Source of the DNA: Alphaproteobacteria bacterium
Lineage (GTDB): Bacteria > Pseudomonadota > Alphaproteobacteria > Rhizobiales > Rhizobiaceae
Reading direction: 5' to 3'
Length of the DNA stretch: 64,000 bases
Assembly (NCBI GenBank): GCA_024742485.1
Contig: JANSYK010000002.1
Span: 930,001-994,000 of the forward strand
A program made the position numbers and the translations under genes. Numbering within the stretch: position 1 is the first letter of the stretch; each line of letters begins with the position of its first letter. The notes under the pieces are model-generated. The model saw only the letters and a list, made by a program, of their open reading frames with translations, did no database searches and was not told the DNA's origin. Positions 20,928 to 27,312 of the stretch are shown one piece after another.

Positions 20928-21413
20928 TCAGTCCTCGTCCCGCGCCGCGTCGAGCATCTGGCGGATGTCCGTCAGGCCCGGAACAAGCGCCTCGATGCGG
21001 TCCGGCGGAAATTGCTTGGCAAATTCGGCAATATCCGGGCCGAGGGATGCAATGGCATTGTTGCGGAAATCGCGGCCGGCCGCCGTCAGCCAGACACATT
21101 TGCTGCGCCCGTCCTTCGGGTTCGGGCGCATTTCGATCAGCCGGTGTTTTTCCAGCACTGACAGCGTGTGGGTCATGGTGGTTTTCGGCACCTGGAAGGC
21201 GCGCGCCAGAACCAGCGGTGTCTGGCCGTCGCGCACCCGGATCAGATGGTTGAGCACGGCAAAATGCGAGGCGAGAAAACCGTCCGGCAACCGCGCCTCG
21301 AACAGGGCGCGGCTGAGCTGCTCGATAATGCCCACTTCGTTGAAGAAGGAGAAGTAAAGGGCGAGCGTCTCGCTGTCGGATTTTGTCAAATGATGCGGGT
21401 CTCCAGCGGCCAT
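20928..21413 (-). CDS. MarR-family transcriptional regulator
   Basis: The 161-residue protein has a MarR winged helix: recognition LVLARAFQVPKTTMTHTLSVLEKHRLI and wing RPNPKDGRSKCVWLTAAGRDF. Its start overlaps the end of the upstream nitroreductase gene by 28 bases, so the two are translationally linked. The strong palindrome in front of the nitroreductase gene is its probable autoregulatory site. It contains Cys residues, one in the wing (SKCVWL), that could sense oxidants, which is an inference. Confidence 0.9.
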   Translation of the reverse strand: MAAGDPHHLTKSDSETLALYFSFFNEVGIIEQLSRALFEARLPDGFLASHFAVLNHLIRVRDGQTPLVLARAFQVPKTTMTHTLSVLEKHRLIEMRPNPKDGRSKCVWLTAAGRDFRNNAIASLGPDIAEFAKQFPPDRIEALVPGLTDIRQMLDAARDED

Positions 21414-22486
21414 CTCGGTGAACGGTCAACGGTGGGCCCGAAACCGAGCCTGCCCAGCATCTGCACCGTTTCGCCGTCCTTTGCAAGCATCCGGTGCGCC
21501 GTTGCATAGTGTTCCGCCATTTCGGGAAACTCCTGCAGCGCCTGGCTGACCGGCTGCAGCGCCAGGCCCAGCGACGTGGTCATCAGGTTCAGCCGCAGCC
21601 AGCGCCGGCCGGCCTCGATCTGGTCGGTCCGCGCATTGCCAGGTGTCGTCAGAACCGCATAGGCGGGCGTCGCCATGAGCATTGCCTCATAGATCCGCAC
21701 GCCCTCCTGAAAGCCGGTCGATTGCGGGTCGAGCTGCGCCTCCCGGCCCACGACGCCGGCGAGCATCAGCGTTTCCAGAAACGCCCCGCCGAGGTCGATC
21801 CCGTCCGGATTGGCATTGATCTCGGCCTTGCCGAACCGCATCAGGTCGACGCTTTCCTTCATGGTGCGCGGCGTGTTGGTTTCCACCAGCCAGGCATCCC
21901 AGGTCAGCGTGCGCAGATCCGCCACGGCTTGCGGATCGGTGATGATCGCCGCATGGGCGGCAAGCTGGTCGACCATCGCCGCCGGAACGGGCTTGTCTTC
22001 GTACGGTTCCTTGCAGGACCGGCGCGCCATCACATGGGCAAACAGCGGATCGGCCGCGGCGCCTTCGGAAAACCGTGCATGGGCCACCGGCCCGTCCTCG
22101 CCCTCGGGATAAAGGTCCAGATCGACCCTGTGGCCGGTCTGCGAGGCGGCAATGACCATCAGTTCCAGGAAACAGCCCAGCCCGATGGTGAGCTGCCGCG
22201 CATGGGGGTCCGTATGCGGCAGGTCGCGCGTCTTGTCGCGATAGAGCGTCACCATGTCGTCGGTGCCGAGATCCACCTGCCAGGGCTGCCGGTTATGCGG
22301 ATTCGGCGCCAGGATCGCATAGGACAGCGCCCGCCGCCGCGGCTCTGAATAGCCGCCGGCCTCAGCCCATGGGGCGAGTGCCTTGGTGGGTGTGCGCGTG
22401 GTGGCAAACAACGCTCCCCCACCCGCCGCCGCCAGAATGGTCCCGCCGCTGATGATGCCAAGTGCCTTGCGTCTGCTGATGGTCAT
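21386..22486 (-). CDS. Twin-arginine nitroreductase-family protein
   Basis: The 366-residue protein begins with a Tat-type signal (ISRRKALGIISGGTILAAAGG). A nitroreductase-fold domain follows, with FMN-binding-like SYAILAPNPHNRQPWQV, ARRSCKEPYEDKPV and LNLMTTSLGLALQPVSQAL. Such exported nitroreductase-like proteins are sometimes annotated as Acg-like or twin-arginine nitroreductase; substrates are unknown. The start is ATG 22486, after TTGGAGAGCACC. It is the first gene of the operon with MarR and GST and lies directly against the AT-rich island. Confidence 0.83.
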   Translation of the reverse strand: MTISRRKALGIISGGTILAAAGGGALFATTRTPTKALAPWAEAGGYSEPRRRALSYAILAPNPHNRQPWQVDLGTDDMVTLYRDKTRDLPHTDPHARQLTIGLGCFLELMVIAASQTGHRVDLDLYPEGEDGPVAHARFSEGAAADPLFAHVMARRSCKEPYEDKPVPAAMVDQLAAHAAIITDPQAVADLRTLTWDAWLVETNTPRTMKESVDLMRFGKAEINANPDGIDLGGAFLETLMLAGVVGREAQLDPQSTGFQEGVRIYEAMLMATPAYAVLTTPGNARTDQIEAGRRWLRLNLMTTSLGLALQPVSQALQEFPEMAEHYATAHRMLAKDGETVQMLGRLGFGPTVDRSPRWPLETRII

Positions 22487-22501
22487 GGTGCTCTCCAATT
22501 G

Positions 22502-22535
22502 ATACGATTTCGTACTATATAGTGCGATATCGTAT
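22502..22535. promoter_or_regulatory. 34-base near-perfect palindromic operator, probably for the MarR regulator
   Basis: The outer arms are ATACGAT and ATCGTAT and the centre is ACTATATAGT. Only two base pairs of the 17 are mismatched. On the minus strand the sequence TATAAT (complement of 22534-22539) overlaps the edge and could be the -10 box of the nitroreductase-MarR-GST operon. Binding here would block transcription. The repeated TACGAT/CGTAC motifs suggest two overlapping half-sites. Confidence 0.7.
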
Positions 22536-22539
22536 TATA

Positions 22540-22857
22540 TGCAAGTGGTGGGCGTAGGCTGATTGTGGAGATAGTCAGGATGAGACTTAATGGGACGTCA
22601 AACGAATTGGCGAAATCGGCCTATGGCGGGCGCTCGATGGCGTTCCAAGGAGAATCAAAATACTGCCGCTCACGCGGAATGTGGCAATCTAAAAACAGGA
22701 TGGCGCTGGATACAGCGACAGCATCCACTGGACACCGTCGAATATACTGTCAGACTTGTGCTTCATCTATGGTATGCGGGAAATCTGGGCGTTGGGCGAA
22801 AAGAATCCTGAACGATTCAGTTTAGTCCAACTGTGAGCAGAAACGGTATCGGAGCAA
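22540..22857. other. Left junction of the AT-rich island, no convincing gene
   Basis: Composition changes from GC-rich to mixed in this stretch. Two short plus-strand reading frames (22590-22811 and 22565-22825) exist, but they overlap each other, have no good ribosome site and resemble nothing I know. They may be remnants. Near the right end, CTGAA-CGA-TTCAG forms a small palindrome around 22807-22820. The promoter of the SMEK-NTPase operon should lie here. I cannot point to a clear -35/-10 pair, integrase remnant or direct repeat. Confidence 0.4.
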
Positions 22858-25515
22858 ATGACAAGACAGGAACTCTTACGAAAATCTGGCTCTCTACTCG
22901 CTCGCTTTGCTTACGAAGTGCGCGTATCAAATGCCATGGGCATGTTTGACATCAACACCGTTGCGGAGGACCTGTTAATCCCAATTTTTGCAACTGCGTT
23001 GGACTGTCCCGATCTGTGCAATCAGAACCGCATTCAAATGAACTTCCCCGCTGTGGATTTGGGATGCGCCACCAGTCGAATCTCGATTCAAGTTACTTCT
23101 GATGCTTCAAGTGGCAAGATCAACGAGACGCTAAACAAGTTCGAGTCCCATGGACTTGTTAAAGATTTTGACCGGCTTTTGGTCTATGTGCTGGCTGAGA
23201 GGCAAAGGACCTATACGTCCAAGAAACTTGAAACGACTGTTGCTGAATTCCCAATCGAGTTCGATCCATTGCGCGACATCCTTGATTTTCAAGACTTGGC
23301 CCAGCAACTTGGCGAACTTTCAAATGAAAAAATTCGAACAATCGTTGATCACCTTGAGGCGGAGTTTAGCAAGGCAGATGCCAATACTAAGTTTCGCTCA
23401 GAGCTGAATGCATTTTTGCGCGTGAGTGCTCAAAAAATTGAAGACGAAAAACGGACAAAGAAATACATCCCGTCTGTGTTCGTGGAGACCACTGAAACAA
23501 AGGAAGAAATGCGGTTTTTCGCAAACCCGTTGTTCTTCCACAGAAAGATAGATGACAAACTCCGGCGCATCAGTTTAGAGCAATTAAACAAACAGCTGAG
23601 AATGGCGCAGATTGAAGAAATAGACTGCGACATTGGTGAGTTATGTAGTCTCGAATCCCCAGACAATTTGTTTGAATTGCGACGCCGCCTAGCTCACCAG
23701 TGTGGCGAGATCTTAAAAATCAAAAACCAAGTTTCGATGTTTTCATGGTACGGCGAACGCGCTGAAAGGTACGTGCCGACCGACGATCTCACTGCATATT
23801 GGACAGTGTTTCGCCACAACATTGAGTCTATTGGCAGCGGAGTGTATCACGCCCTCGACGACATCTCAGAAAAAATTAGAATTGCACAGGCGAAGATCTT
23901 TCTCGTAACTGGCATGGCAGGGCAAGGAAAAACAAATTTCGTTTGCGATTTAGTAGAAAACCAATTCAGACAATTTGAAATTCCAACGATTTTCATCCCT
24001 GCTAGGAAGCTAAACGATTTCCCGGGTCCAAACCGGGTACAAACGTACATTACAAACAACCGTTTCGCGCCTGATGTCCGCGACGTCCATGAACTGTTGA
24101 CTTTGTTCAACGGCGTAGCGGAGGAGTTCGGGAAGCCGTTTGTCATTGCTATCGATGGGATCAACGAGGTTGGAGACTTAGACGGTTTTGTTTCTGAGTT
24201 ACGGGTGCTTCTGGACGCTTTATGCCAGTATGACTTCGTGAAGATCATCATAACCTGTCGCAACGAATTTTTTGATCACAAGTTCGCTGAATTGTTTGAA
24301 CCTGAGTTCGCTGAATATCTCTATAGGGTCCAAGATCTCCGAAATGGTATGTCTGAGGATAACAAGGATCGGCTGTTAGGCTCTTATCTCGGTCATTTTC
24401 AGATTGATGCAAGGCTTTCGACCTCAGCAGCAGAGTTCCTGAAGAATGACCTAATTTTGCTCAGGATTTTCTGCGATATCCATGAGGGAAAAAGCATCGG
24501 TTACGTGTCTAACATCTACAAAGGGGATGTTTTCGAAGGGTACTTGACGATGAAGATTGGGGAGTTTCCGCTCCAAGAGCAACGGATGGCATTGAATTCG
24601 ATCTTTAAAATATGTGCACGCATGCTGGAAAACGAAGACTTTGTGCAACTTCCCGTCGAAGGATTTGATAACGTAGAAAGAGCAATTATCGAAAGGCTGA
24701 TTGGCGAAGATATCATCCTCAGAAGGGAGGTCCCTACTACAGGCCTTGCGTCGCTCGGCGTCGAGAACATCTCCTTCACATACGATGAAATGAGGGATTT
24801 CTTGCTCGCGTATTTTACGGTTGTTGAATTGGCTCAATCAAGCCCGAATAAGGTCAAAACATTGTTTGAGAGCGTTCGTAATTGGCCCATCTACGAAGGA
24901 TTCTTTCGATACGCATATGTTCTGGCAAGGAAGCAAAGTTGCGAACGTGTTGTTGCAACATGCGAAGCATTTGATGATTTTGAACGGCACTACCTCAACA
25001 ATTTGACGCTATTGTCAGCCGATATTCAGACAACGGATGATGTAACACGTGTGAAATCGATGTTGGTCAATCTCACGGCCGCGCGCGATCTTCGCCACCT
25101 AGTGTGGTTCTTATTCAGGAGGCGAGATAACTCGGACCACCTAAATGTTCAAATCCTCCTCGATCATCTAAACAAACTGGATGACGACGCCTTGGAAGAA
25201 TTCACAAAGGTGATGTTTTCGCGTTCAGTGGACTATCAGGGTGGCGAATGGAAGGACCGCGTAAGCCGCTTGCTAAAAGACCTCATAGAACTGAATATAG
25301 ATCAACAAGCTAGCATGCACGCCCCTGCACTCGCGGTAACGCTGTGTTTTGCGCCCTTTGCACATTGGGATGAGCGGGAATCTACTAAGAATCTATATAC
25401 AGACAGAGCCCATATTCCAGAGTTCCGTGACGCAATAAGTTTGTGTGGAAGCGCGAGAGCTGCTCGAGTTCAAAGCTGCATAGCCGAGATTTCAGAAGAG
25501 CGGACAGCAGTATGA
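22858..25515 (+). CDS. SMEK-domain STAND/NACHT-like P-loop NTPase, candidate antiphage protein
   Basis: This 885-residue protein has an N-terminal SMEK-type domain (residues 1 to about 175). The marks are LLARFAYEVRVSNAMGMFDINTVAED, the core MNFPAVDLG...SRISIQVTSD, and KINETLNKFESHGL, which match that family as I recall it from predicted conflict systems. A P-loop ATPase follows: Walker A GMAGQGKT (352-359), Walker B FVIAIDGINEV (Asp433) and sensor-like KIIITCRNEF. The order and the DG-NE after Walker B suggest a STAND/NACHT-type switch. The remaining 400 residues look helical, perhaps a sensor. The start has GGAG six bases upstream. It overlaps the next gene by four bases. Codon use is AT-richer than its neighbours. 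Confidence 0.8.
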   Translation: MTRQELLRKSGSLLARFAYEVRVSNAMGMFDINTVAEDLLIPIFATALDCPDLCNQNRIQMNFPAVDLGCATSRISIQVTSDASSGKINETLNKFESHGLVKDFDRLLVYVLAERQRTYTSKKLETTVAEFPIEFDPLRDILDFQDLAQQLGELSNEKIRTIVDHLEAEFSKADANTKFRSELNAFLRVSAQKIEDEKRTKKYIPSVFVETTETKEEMRFFANPLFFHRKIDDKLRRISLEQLNKQLRMAQIEEIDCDIGELCSLESPDNLFELRRRLAHQCGEILKIKNQVSMFSWYGERAERYVPTDDLTAYWTVFRHNIESIGSGVYHALDDISEKIRIAQAKIFLVTGMAGQGKTNFVCDLVENQFRQFEIPTIFIPARKLNDFPGPNRVQTYITNNRFAPDVRDVHELLTLFNGVAEEFGKPFVIAIDGINEVGDLDGFVSELRVLLDALCQYDFVKIIITCRNEFFDHKFAELFEPEFAEYLYRVQDLRNGMSEDNKDRLLGSYLGHFQIDARLSTSAAEFLKNDLILLRIFCDIHEGKSIGYVSNIYKGDVFEGYLTMKIGEFPLQEQRMALNSIFKICARMLENEDFVQLPVEGFDNVERAIIERLIGEDIILRREVPTTGLASLGVENISFTYDEMRDFLLAYFTVVELAQSSPNKVKTLFESVRNWPIYEGFFRYAYVLARKQSCERVVATCEAFDDFERHYLNNLTLLSADIQTTDDVTRVKSMLVNLTAARDLRHLVWFLFRRRDNSDHLNVQILLDHLNKLDDDALEEFTKVMFSRSVDYQGGEWKDRVSRLLKDLIELNIDQQASMHAPALAVTLCFAPFAHWDERESTKNLYTDRAHIPEFRDAISLCGSARAARVQSCIAEISEERTAV

Positions 25516-25889
25516 GAGATGAGATAAAACTGATTCTTCCAACATCATGGGAGCCGAACAAAGAGGCATTCCTAGCAAAATTGGGTGTGTCCCGCGGGCG
25601 TCTTGGCGAGCACTTTTTTGGCAAGGTGTATGACGCGTTCTTTGTCCACTCCATTGAAATTAAGCAGGAGTTCGAGAAATACTATTCTGTCGAATATGCC
25701 AATTTAGCGGACTATGTTGAAATCGTTTATGGTGAAATCCTCAGCGACGACGACTTGGAGCAAGACCGGGTTTTCTTCGTGACTTGGCTACCTCAAGTCG
25801 TTGACGACATTTGCGGTGACAACAAACTGGACACCGTGCTTGAGTGCATTGAGGGCCTGGAAAGGGCGCAATATGAAGATCAAGCTTGA
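25512..25889 (+). CDS. Small acidic protein of unknown function in the SMEK-NTPase operon
   Basis: I do not recognise this 125-residue protein. It starts at the ATG embedded in the previous stop (ATGA), beginning MRDEIKLILPTSWEP. An in-frame start 23 codons earlier lies inside the NTPase gene and encodes an unlikely Cys/Ser/Arg stretch. The sequence is rich in Asp, Glu and aromatics (FEKYYSVEYANLADYVEIVYGEIL) and looks mixed alpha/beta or helical, with no signal peptide or membrane span. Tight coupling on both sides suggests a partner of the NTPase or of the following protein, for example a chaperone, adaptor or inhibitor. That is inference. Confidence 0.65.
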   Translation: MRDEIKLILPTSWEPNKEAFLAKLGVSRGRLGEHFFGKVYDAFFVHSIEIKQEFEKYYSVEYANLADYVEIVYGEILSDDDLEQDRVFFVTWLPQVVDDICGDNKLDTVLECIEGLERAQYEDQA

Positions 25890-26271
25890 TTTTGTTTCGA
25901 ATAGCTCGTCAACGTCGTTCGTGTACATCTCTGACATCGATTTGACTGAGGACATTTTCCTAGAAGCTGCCGGAGTGGAGCGAGACGGACCTGTGGGGGA
26001 TTTGTTTTTACAAATGCATCGAGAGTTGACAGCTGCGATGCGCAGCGGGACTGTTGTCACAACCAAGGAGGCTGCCGATGACCTCGCGGGATCGCATGAG
26101 TATACTCCTCAGGTTGTCCAGAGGATGAAGGAGGCTGTTGATCAAGGGAAGAATGTTTTTACAGGGACACTTAATAGCGATGGACCGCTTGCTGAGTCTC
26201 TTCTTTGCATGGCAATGTTCGAGATCGATTCAGACAAATTCTATATCAACGCTTATAACAACTATTGGTAA
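25873..26271 (+). CDS. 132-residue protein with FVSNSSSTSF N-terminus, possible radical SAM substrate
   Basis: The start is ATG 25873, after GAAAGG, overlapping the previous gene by 17 bases. The protein begins MKIKLDFVSNSSSTSFVYI. I recall a widespread, unassigned class of proteins with very similar N-termini (MK-hydrophobic-x-x-DFVTNSSSSSFI). I cannot verify this here. The remainder (DIDLTEDIFLEAAG..., VVTTKEAADDLAGS, MKEAVDQGKNVFTGTL, ending INAYNNYW) has no motif I know and no signal peptide. The next gene, six bases on, encodes a radical SAM enzyme. The constant Ser/Thr-rich start looks like a recognition or modification site. It may be the modified effector or sensor of the system, which is inference. 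Confidence 0.65.
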   Translation: MKIKLDFVSNSSSTSFVYISDIDLTEDIFLEAAGVERDGPVGDLFLQMHRELTAAMRSGTVVTTKEAADDLAGSHEYTPQVVQRMKEAVDQGKNVFTGTLNSDGPLAESLLCMAMFEIDSDKFYINAYNNYW

Positions 26272-26277
26272 CTCCGT

Positions 26278-27312
26278 TTGCTTAAAGCCATCCATTACAA
26301 AAATCTTGGTTACACATCCTTCTTTAACTCGGCCACTGGCTTCTTCGCGCGAGTTCCGGACAAAGGTGAAAAAGATCCGTTTTGGTCACCTCACGGTCCA
26401 GAGCTCATGGACATCTCAATAACCAACTGGTGCGATAAAGGTTGCGCATTTTGTTATAAGTCTTCAACCAAGCGCGGAAAGCATATGGCGCTAGCCGATT
26501 ACAAAAAGATTATCGACCAAGCAGCCGAAATGGCAACATTCCAAGTTGCTCTGGGTGGCGGCAACCCGAACCAGCACCCGGACTTCGTTGAGATCCTCCA
26601 ATACACCGCGTCTAAGGGAATAGTGCCAAACTATACGACAAACGGTAGGGGGCTCAGTAGCGAGATTCTTGAAGCAACACGCAAGCATTGCGGAGCCGTG
26701 GCTGTTTCTGCCTACGCTCCATACAATGAAACCGAAGAAACTATATGTACGCTGGCTTCGTCGGGAATAAAGATCAATGTGCACTTTATTCTGGATGCCG
26801 AAAGCATCGACACGGCGATAGCATGGCTCAAGGAACCTCCGAGTTTCGTAAGAAGTATCAACGCCATAATCTTCTTAAACTACAAACCTTCTGGCCGGAA
26901 AGTTTTTGAGAAGAAAATGCTGCGTAATAGCGACAGGTTGGATGAATTCTTCGAGCTAGCAACTTCGAGCCGACGTAAACTGAAGGTAGGCTTCGATGCC
27001 TGTTGCGTCAGTGGTGTTTTCGCTCGAACCAACGCTAATCCGACAATGGTCGACGCATGCGACGCCGGAAGGTTTTCTATGTATGTGTCAGAAGACCTCT
27101 CTGTTCACCCGTGTTCCTTTCAGAGTGGTCTCGCTGACGGAGATCAACTCAATGAACGCACGTCACTGTTGGAAATTTGGACAAAATCGAAAAACATGTC
27201 TTCGTTTCGAAGCTACTTTGCTTCCGAGCGTTGCGGCGGATGTGCACATCGCTCGAGCTGTATGAATGGATGCCCGTTGTTTGATGATCTCGTCGTTTGT
27301 GGAAACCGATAG
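26278..27312 (+). CDS. Radical SAM protein with SPASM-like C-terminal cysteines
   Basis: The 344-residue protein carries the radical SAM 4Fe-4S motif CDKGCAFC (Cys52, Cys56, Cys59). Its partial barrel includes QVALGGGNPNQHPDF and PNYTTNGRGL. The C-terminus is Cys-rich (DACDAGRF, VHPCSFQSG, RCGGCAHRSSCMNGCP, VVCGNR), as in SPASM/twitch enzymes that bind auxiliary clusters and modify peptides or proteins. TTG at 26278 gives the longest reading. MLKAIHYKNLGYTSF looks genuine because the segment before the Cys motif is conserved in relatives as I remember them. There is no good ribosome site, so coupling to the previous gene, six bases upstream, is likely. Last gene of the operon. Confidence 0.85.
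   Translation: MLKAIHYKNLGYTSFFNSATGFFARVPDKGEKDPFWSPHGPELMDISITNWCDKGCAFCYKSSTKRGKHMALADYKKIIDQAAEMATFQVALGGGNPNQHPDFVEILQYTASKGIVPNYTTNGRGLSSEILEATRKHCGAVAVSAYAPYNETEETICTLASSGIKINVHFILDAESIDTAIAWLKEPPSFVRSINAIIFLNYKPSGRKVFEKKMLRNSDRLDEFFELATSSRRKLKVGFDACCVSGVFARTNANPTMVDACDAGRFSMYVSEDLSVHPCSFQSGLADGDQLNERTSLLEIWTKSKNMSSFRSYFASERCGGCAHRSSCMNGCPLFDDLVVCGNR

Follow-up and report, generated by a model that had tools for sequence, protein, structure and literature searches.

The nearest precedents for the locus treated here are Avs2 of the AVAST systems, the nuclease-protease pairs of the AVAST, Hachiman, Lamassu and DRT (defence-associated reverse transcriptase) systems (PMC12799240) and the FtsH ternary conflict systems, in which modification of a peptide effector is ascribed to a radical S-adenosylmethionine (SAM) enzyme (PMC7159879; both sources in their accessible part). 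Avs2 combines a STAND NTPase with exchangeable N-terminal effectors. The locus lies in a 64,000-nt stretch of an alphaproteobacterial genome (contig JANSYK010000002.1, positions 930,001 to 994,000), here called the window, and consists of four genes in the same direction, A, B, C and D, at window positions 22858-27312. Their products are a SMEK-STAND NTPase, two small proteins and a radical SAM enzyme. We consider it rather probable that they constitute an abortive-infection system resembling Avs and the nucleotide-binding leucine-rich repeat (NLR) proteins, in which sensing or licensing would run via B and via C modified by D. Three features that the initial annotation had missed appear to be new: C starts with a near-invariant tag, B is related to C but has no tag, and tagged proteins are also encoded beside radical SAM genes of large phages.

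The four-gene unit and its distribution

The open reading frames (ORFs) of the window bear out the four genes on one strand, with junctions of -4, -17 and +6 bases, which the initial annotation had reported. All are on the plus strand: A (22858..25515, 885 aa) is a SMEK-STAND/NACHT NTPase by its Pfam and PADLOC matches, B (25512..25889) a protein of 125 aa, C (25873..26271) the tagged protein of 132 aa, and D (26278..27312; 344 aa, TTG start) a radical SAM enzyme, probably of SPASM type, according to Pfam, NCBIfam and its matches to SkfB and PqqE.

Scanning genome contigs with a profile of D and phage radical SAM enzymes (alignment A3) fetched 78 genomic loci, many of them in metagenome-assembled genomes. 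A, detected by its own profile, lies upstream in 70 of these and a tag gene is present in 76. In 69 of the 70 A-bearing loci the distance from the end of A to the start of C is 336-461 nt, and an ORF of 85-170 aa, the size of B, sits between them. An accidental junction, which the initial annotation had allowed for, is ruled out by these numbers; the four genes are found together widely, on plasmids and viral contigs as well. By record title the carriers include Proteobacteria, Bacteroidetes, Clostridia, Veillonella, Chloroflexi, Cyanobacteria, Spirochaetia, Methanosarcina and Methanoculleus. Pairwise distances of the A core, B, C and D are correlated (r 0.78-0.92; none of 999 shuffles as high) over 63 rows, the window included, that passed length and profile filters.

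In the two loci without a tag (L203, L239) the radical SAM gene itself is truncated by or touches the contig end. Eight loci lack A, four of them close to a contig end (L203, L222, L238, L239); the others are L217 and L226-L228, of which L227 likewise begins close to the end of its contig. In L226-L228 the radical SAM gene precedes the tag gene. The pair in L226 (5859-9340, Bacillota) follows a gene of 688 codons with a P-loop GEFSSGKST, which we take to be dynamin-like, and in L222 (263-4659) four tagged C-like genes in tandem come after the radical SAM gene, A being absent from the sequenced stretch. A candidate fusion of A and B in L191 was judged weak, as the ORF contains ambiguous bases.

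D was matched in 43 plasmid records. Identity is 60-80% in seven, which are exactly the records that also contain C. The four genes stand in order on the four plasmids inspected, those of Rhodobacter CZR27, Rhizobium sophoriradicis (here with A split into two ORFs) and Agrobacterium Sta004 and Ach5, and the whole operon also occurs on four viral contigs (L009, L010, L011, L100). Near-copies seem to make up many of the viral loci and four of those seven plasmid records, therefore locus counts do not equal independent events; near-copies or broken copies were omitted from alignments A5 (68 of 75 prepared rows) and A6 (63 of 70). Both Agrobacterium plasmid copies (L007, 11462-13961; L008, 14065-16543) lie near a gene of the RHE_PE00001 family and near a site-specific integrase, which may mark a shared site of insertion.

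As stated in the initial annotation, the genes are AT-richer than their surroundings: their GC content is 46-48%, compared with 64.5% in the stretch to the left and 61.7% in that to the right, and GC at third codon positions is 51-54% in the operon versus 72-82% in eight flanking genes. C was found in one of eight genomes of the genus. Among 297 genomes of the order, full-length D occurs only in the window's own genome, three others having partial matches of 30%. Such rarity of C and D in genus and order is what an acquired cassette would be expected to show. An empty site was not shown: the right-flank DNA matched one of 20 other relatives, with the right-hand gene alone. An AT-rich imperfect palindrome, perhaps a regulator site, is located at 22503-22540, in the interval that separates the operon from the reverse-strand gene 21386-22498.

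Exchanged effectors, the radical SAM enzyme and the tag

The SMEK-like N-terminus of A that had been noticed before proved to be a strong match: residues 13-150 (22894..23307) score 135.3 bits with SMEK_N against a cut-off of 27 (E 1.8e-39), and sequence alignment to the solved Mrr domain of an Mrr-APAZ prokaryotic Argonaute (pAgo), 26bh, gives 1.1e-21; the domain is Mrr- or restriction endonuclease (REase)-like. The STAND/NACHT assignment is borne out too, more clearly by PADLOC than by Pfam. PADLOC matches A to Avs2 (1.7e-21), besides the short-pAgo REase (2.8e-48), and the Pfam NACHT match (residues 348-487, E 8e-6) is weak, with 26.2 bits slightly below the cut-off of 26.7. The motifs named earlier are in place, Walker A GMAGQGKT at residues 352-359 (23911..23934) and the Walker B-like FVIAIDGINEV at residues 428-438 (24139..24171).

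Some relatives carry other domains at this end. The scan covered 67 of the 70 A proteins (L176, L190 and L191 were dropped). Pfam assigned 22 N-termini to SMEK, ten to trypsin, two to phosphorylase and one each to DUF4062 and to a piece of a sugar transferase, and PADLOC assigned 22 to the short-pAgo REase, 12 to HamA, 11 to Avs1b, four to LmuA and two to a PN-superfamily effector. Sister rows L230 and L240 (support 100/99) differ at the start of A, which is DUF4062 in L240 and consists of other letters in L230; phosphorylase-type L187 and L208 nest within a Bacteroidetes group of the tree. Furthermore, in all 12 Clostridial or other Firmicute loci inspected an ORF of 386-406 codons with the stretch [TS]HxDxDH, presumably of metallo-beta-lactamase (MBL) type, lies just upstream of A. 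The copy in L214 is LmuA/Avs1a-like by PADLOC, and seven of 107 operon neighbours match those families. Since the effectors vary while B, C and D persist, we place the latter three on the sensing or regulatory side.

D contains a Radical_SAM domain (Pfam, E 1.8e-13) and a CxxxCxxC motif (Cys 52, 56 and 59; 26431..26454) that is invariant in the ten rows of A3, in agreement with its first designation as a radical SAM protein. A SPASM-like region (residues 261-322; 27058..27243) scores near the cut-offs, 21.3 bits versus 21.5 for PF13186 and 29.2 versus 27 for TIGR04085. The nearest solved sequences are SkfB (2.1e-7) and PqqE (7.2e-6).

The tag comprises residues 1-18 of C (MKIKLDFVSNSSSTSFVY; 25873..25926, plus strand). 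C proteins begin almost invariably with MKIKxDFVTNSSSTSFVI, or as a pattern M-K-[IV]-[KR]-x-[DG]-F-V-[TS]-N-S-S-S-T-S-F. Over 84 proteins (the window, seven plasmid or viral and 76 genomic ones) the first 18 columns hold on average 3.55 bits of information per column, compared with 1.92 elsewhere. N10, S11 and S12 are unchanging, an invariance that is partly built in: the pattern used for the proteins demanded asparagine at position 10, followed by small residues, and several tag positions were fixed in the DNA pattern. In the operon C genes S11 is encoded by AGY in 82 of 84 cases and S12 by TCN in 83, which fits common descent and is not itself an argument for selection at the protein level. 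The serines of viral tags use both codon families; conservation of the tag as DNA was therefore rejected.

Beyond the tag, about 110 residues of C form a conserved body, with no variable core. In a single profile comparison B aligned with C over 101 columns from C residue 12 onwards (probability 98.1, E 7e-14), leaving B without a tag, and the C profile also matched the B gene in two genomes (1.6e-6 and 5.8e-5). Judged by these alignments, B and C are homologous. Neither has a convincing family in Pfam, PADLOC, NCBIfam or PHROG comparisons; Pfam gave scattered weak matches for 63 B and 68 C relatives, and C had no match among solved structures up to E 1.

Tagged proteins beside radical SAM genes of large phages

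Searches for D-type radical SAM enzymes also yield phage contigs without A. An intact tagged gene starts at most 470 nt downstream of the radical SAM gene in 29 of 33 viral loci (two of 35 were too short downstream). Of the remaining four, L024 has lost the downstream tag gene, and an interrupted tag-gene remnant directly follows the radical SAM gene in L038 (4682-4920), L039 (3201-3440) and L040 (6007-6250). A search by a DNA pattern of the tag, blind to the radical SAM gene, returned 117 stretches, with 112 new loci on 100 contigs; 64 of the 112 loci hold a D-family radical SAM gene. For the other 48 loci the search was extended to complete records, 41 of them for 43 loci, the remaining five loci sharing those contigs. 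A radical SAM gene was found in 17 of the 41, five on contigs already counted, so that it is present on 76 of the 100 tagged viral contigs; in two of these cases the match is to an end fragment of 35 residues.

Without their first 20 residues, the 194 unique tagged viral proteins form 37 clusters (BLAST, E 1e-4), 21 of them singletons and one the operon C family; by BLAST they have only the tag in common. The large viral contigs L059 (nine clusters), L121 and L147 carry arrays in which six to nine different genes bear the tag. Among 50,697 phage records, 186 contain relatives of D at E 1e-8, mostly T4-like phages. A tree of 106 rows splits the tag-associated enzymes with full support from three enzymes of T4-like enterobacterial phages (L161, 3908-5062; L162, 3911-5062; L163, 3978-5123; family phrog_7293 by match of D), and places 25 of 26 viral rows in one supported group, the exception being L100, which carries the operon. 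Since contigs of large phages, too, encode tagged proteins next to relatives of this enzyme, the tag most likely serves D as its site of recognition or modification.

Proposed mechanism, alternatives and relation to described systems

The defence role already assumed in the initial annotation is supported by effector domains that are familiar from other defence systems and are exchanged between relatives, by the plasmid and viral copies, and by the neighbourhood; protection against phages is what we infer from them. At 1e-10, PADLOC matched 228 families for 107 neighbours of 27 operons and 12 for 107 control genes (107 of 116 prepared) from elsewhere on the same contigs, figures that count families, not genes, as many families can be matched by one restriction or methylase gene. 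We suggest that A is the switch: upon infection the STAND core would oligomerise and turn on the N-terminal effector, here the putative SMEK nuclease, which would kill or arrest the infected cell. D, probably a SPASM-type enzyme, would recognise and most likely modify the tag of C. B and modified C, as homologous small partners of A, would then act in sensing or licensing, not as effectors, and may replace the long C-terminal sensor part of Avs2 that is absent from A.

Several observations weigh against this scheme. L217 consists of C and D without A although upstream sequence is present, and in the L211 genome stops interrupt the C match, with A, B and D present. No radical SAM gene was found on 24 of the 100 tagged viral contigs, including records of 202,719 and 151,964 bases, though these may be fragments. 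Nor does a tag follow every related radical SAM gene, as the T4-like phages have none within about 4 kb.

The rSAM-tag pairing in phages also permits a wider interpretation, namely a general, hitherto unrecognised modification system, in which one clade of radical SAM enzymes serves a fixed N-terminal tag of 16-18 residues on many otherwise dissimilar large-phage proteins, and a widespread family of NLR-like immune systems employs this enzyme and tag for sensing or licensing, C being a decoy of a tagged phage protein. We hold this as a tentative view, somewhat less probable than its negation. A narrower guard or decoy model, in which phages would modify their tagged proteins by a radical SAM enzyme of their own and C mimics such a protein and is held by D in one modification state until a phage radical SAM enzyme, a phage C-like protein or a drop in SAM shifts that state and frees A, appears unlikely. 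It agrees with the radical SAM clade and tag shared with phages, and one phage cluster of eight tagged proteins is remotely akin to C outside the tag (probability 94.8; 50 column shuffles reached at most 0.9), but among the 14 largest viral clusters compared, the operon C cluster aside, this was the only one related to C.

Still less probable is C as the effector, matured by D into a toxic protein that A would release or export upon infection. The modified peptide effector ascribed to the FtsH ternary systems (PMC7159879, accessible in part) offers a parallel; however, A already has recognised effector domains, which are swapped while C stays, and the body of C is conserved. A viperin-like role for D, with synthesis of a small antiviral molecule and the tag as a mere docking or targeting signal, is very improbable, and a viperin-like product was rejected: PADLOC pVip models match D (2.9e-13), but the NCBIfam viperin score is 40.3 against a cut-off of 180, several peptide or cofactor maturases score higher, and the pairing of radical SAM gene with tag recurs in two separate settings.

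Returning to the favoured scheme of an effector switch governed by B and modified C, the initial annotation had called an NLR-like operon with a radical SAM enzyme unusual and perhaps undescribed. Among the matches listed, no description of the operon or the tag was found in the open-access literature, which agrees with that view, to which the Avs2-like nature of the STAND core has to be added. The term 'radical' is absent from the main text of PMC12799240, 'radical SAM' from that of the jumbo-phage reviews PMC7824862 and PMC13282480, and both 'radical' and 'SMEK' from PMC13092281. The radical SAM-tag module under the operon is possibly unprecedented. If our scheme is true, NLR-like bacterial immunity gains a switch coupled to SAM-dependent protein modification. 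The tag would be usable for genome mining and mark an uncharacterised class of putative radical SAM substrates in phages, bacteria and archaea.

Compared with the described systems, Avs2 is the best PADLOC match for the A core in several relatives as well. However, A with about 885 aa covers the Avs2 profiles (1375-1576 positions) only to about 470-790, its NCBIfam Avs2 score of 51.5 compares with a cut-off of 1000, it lacks the long sensor part at the C-terminus, and the operon has obligate-looking partners in B, C and the radical SAM enzyme D. With the nuclease-protease pairs (PMC12799240, accessible part) the family shares the putative MBL-fold gene upstream of A (12 of 12) and the trypsin N-termini (10 of 67), whereas A of the window has a SMEK domain, a putative nuclease, instead. 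The SMEK domain is common to the short pAgo systems with a SMEK/Mrr nuclease (PMC10810196, accessible in part), but here it is fused to a STAND NTPase in an operon without an Argonaute. The SPASM maturases SkfB, PqqE and MftC resemble D in joining a radical SAM domain to a SPASM-like region and are its best curated or solved matches, yet D scores far below their family cut-offs and no separate recognition domain was matched, a PqqD-like one giving no Pfam match at E up to 1. In contrast to the short precursor with leader and variable core of ribosomally synthesised and post-translationally modified peptides, the putative substrate C is a conserved protein of full length, 132 residues, that bears its tag at the N-terminus.

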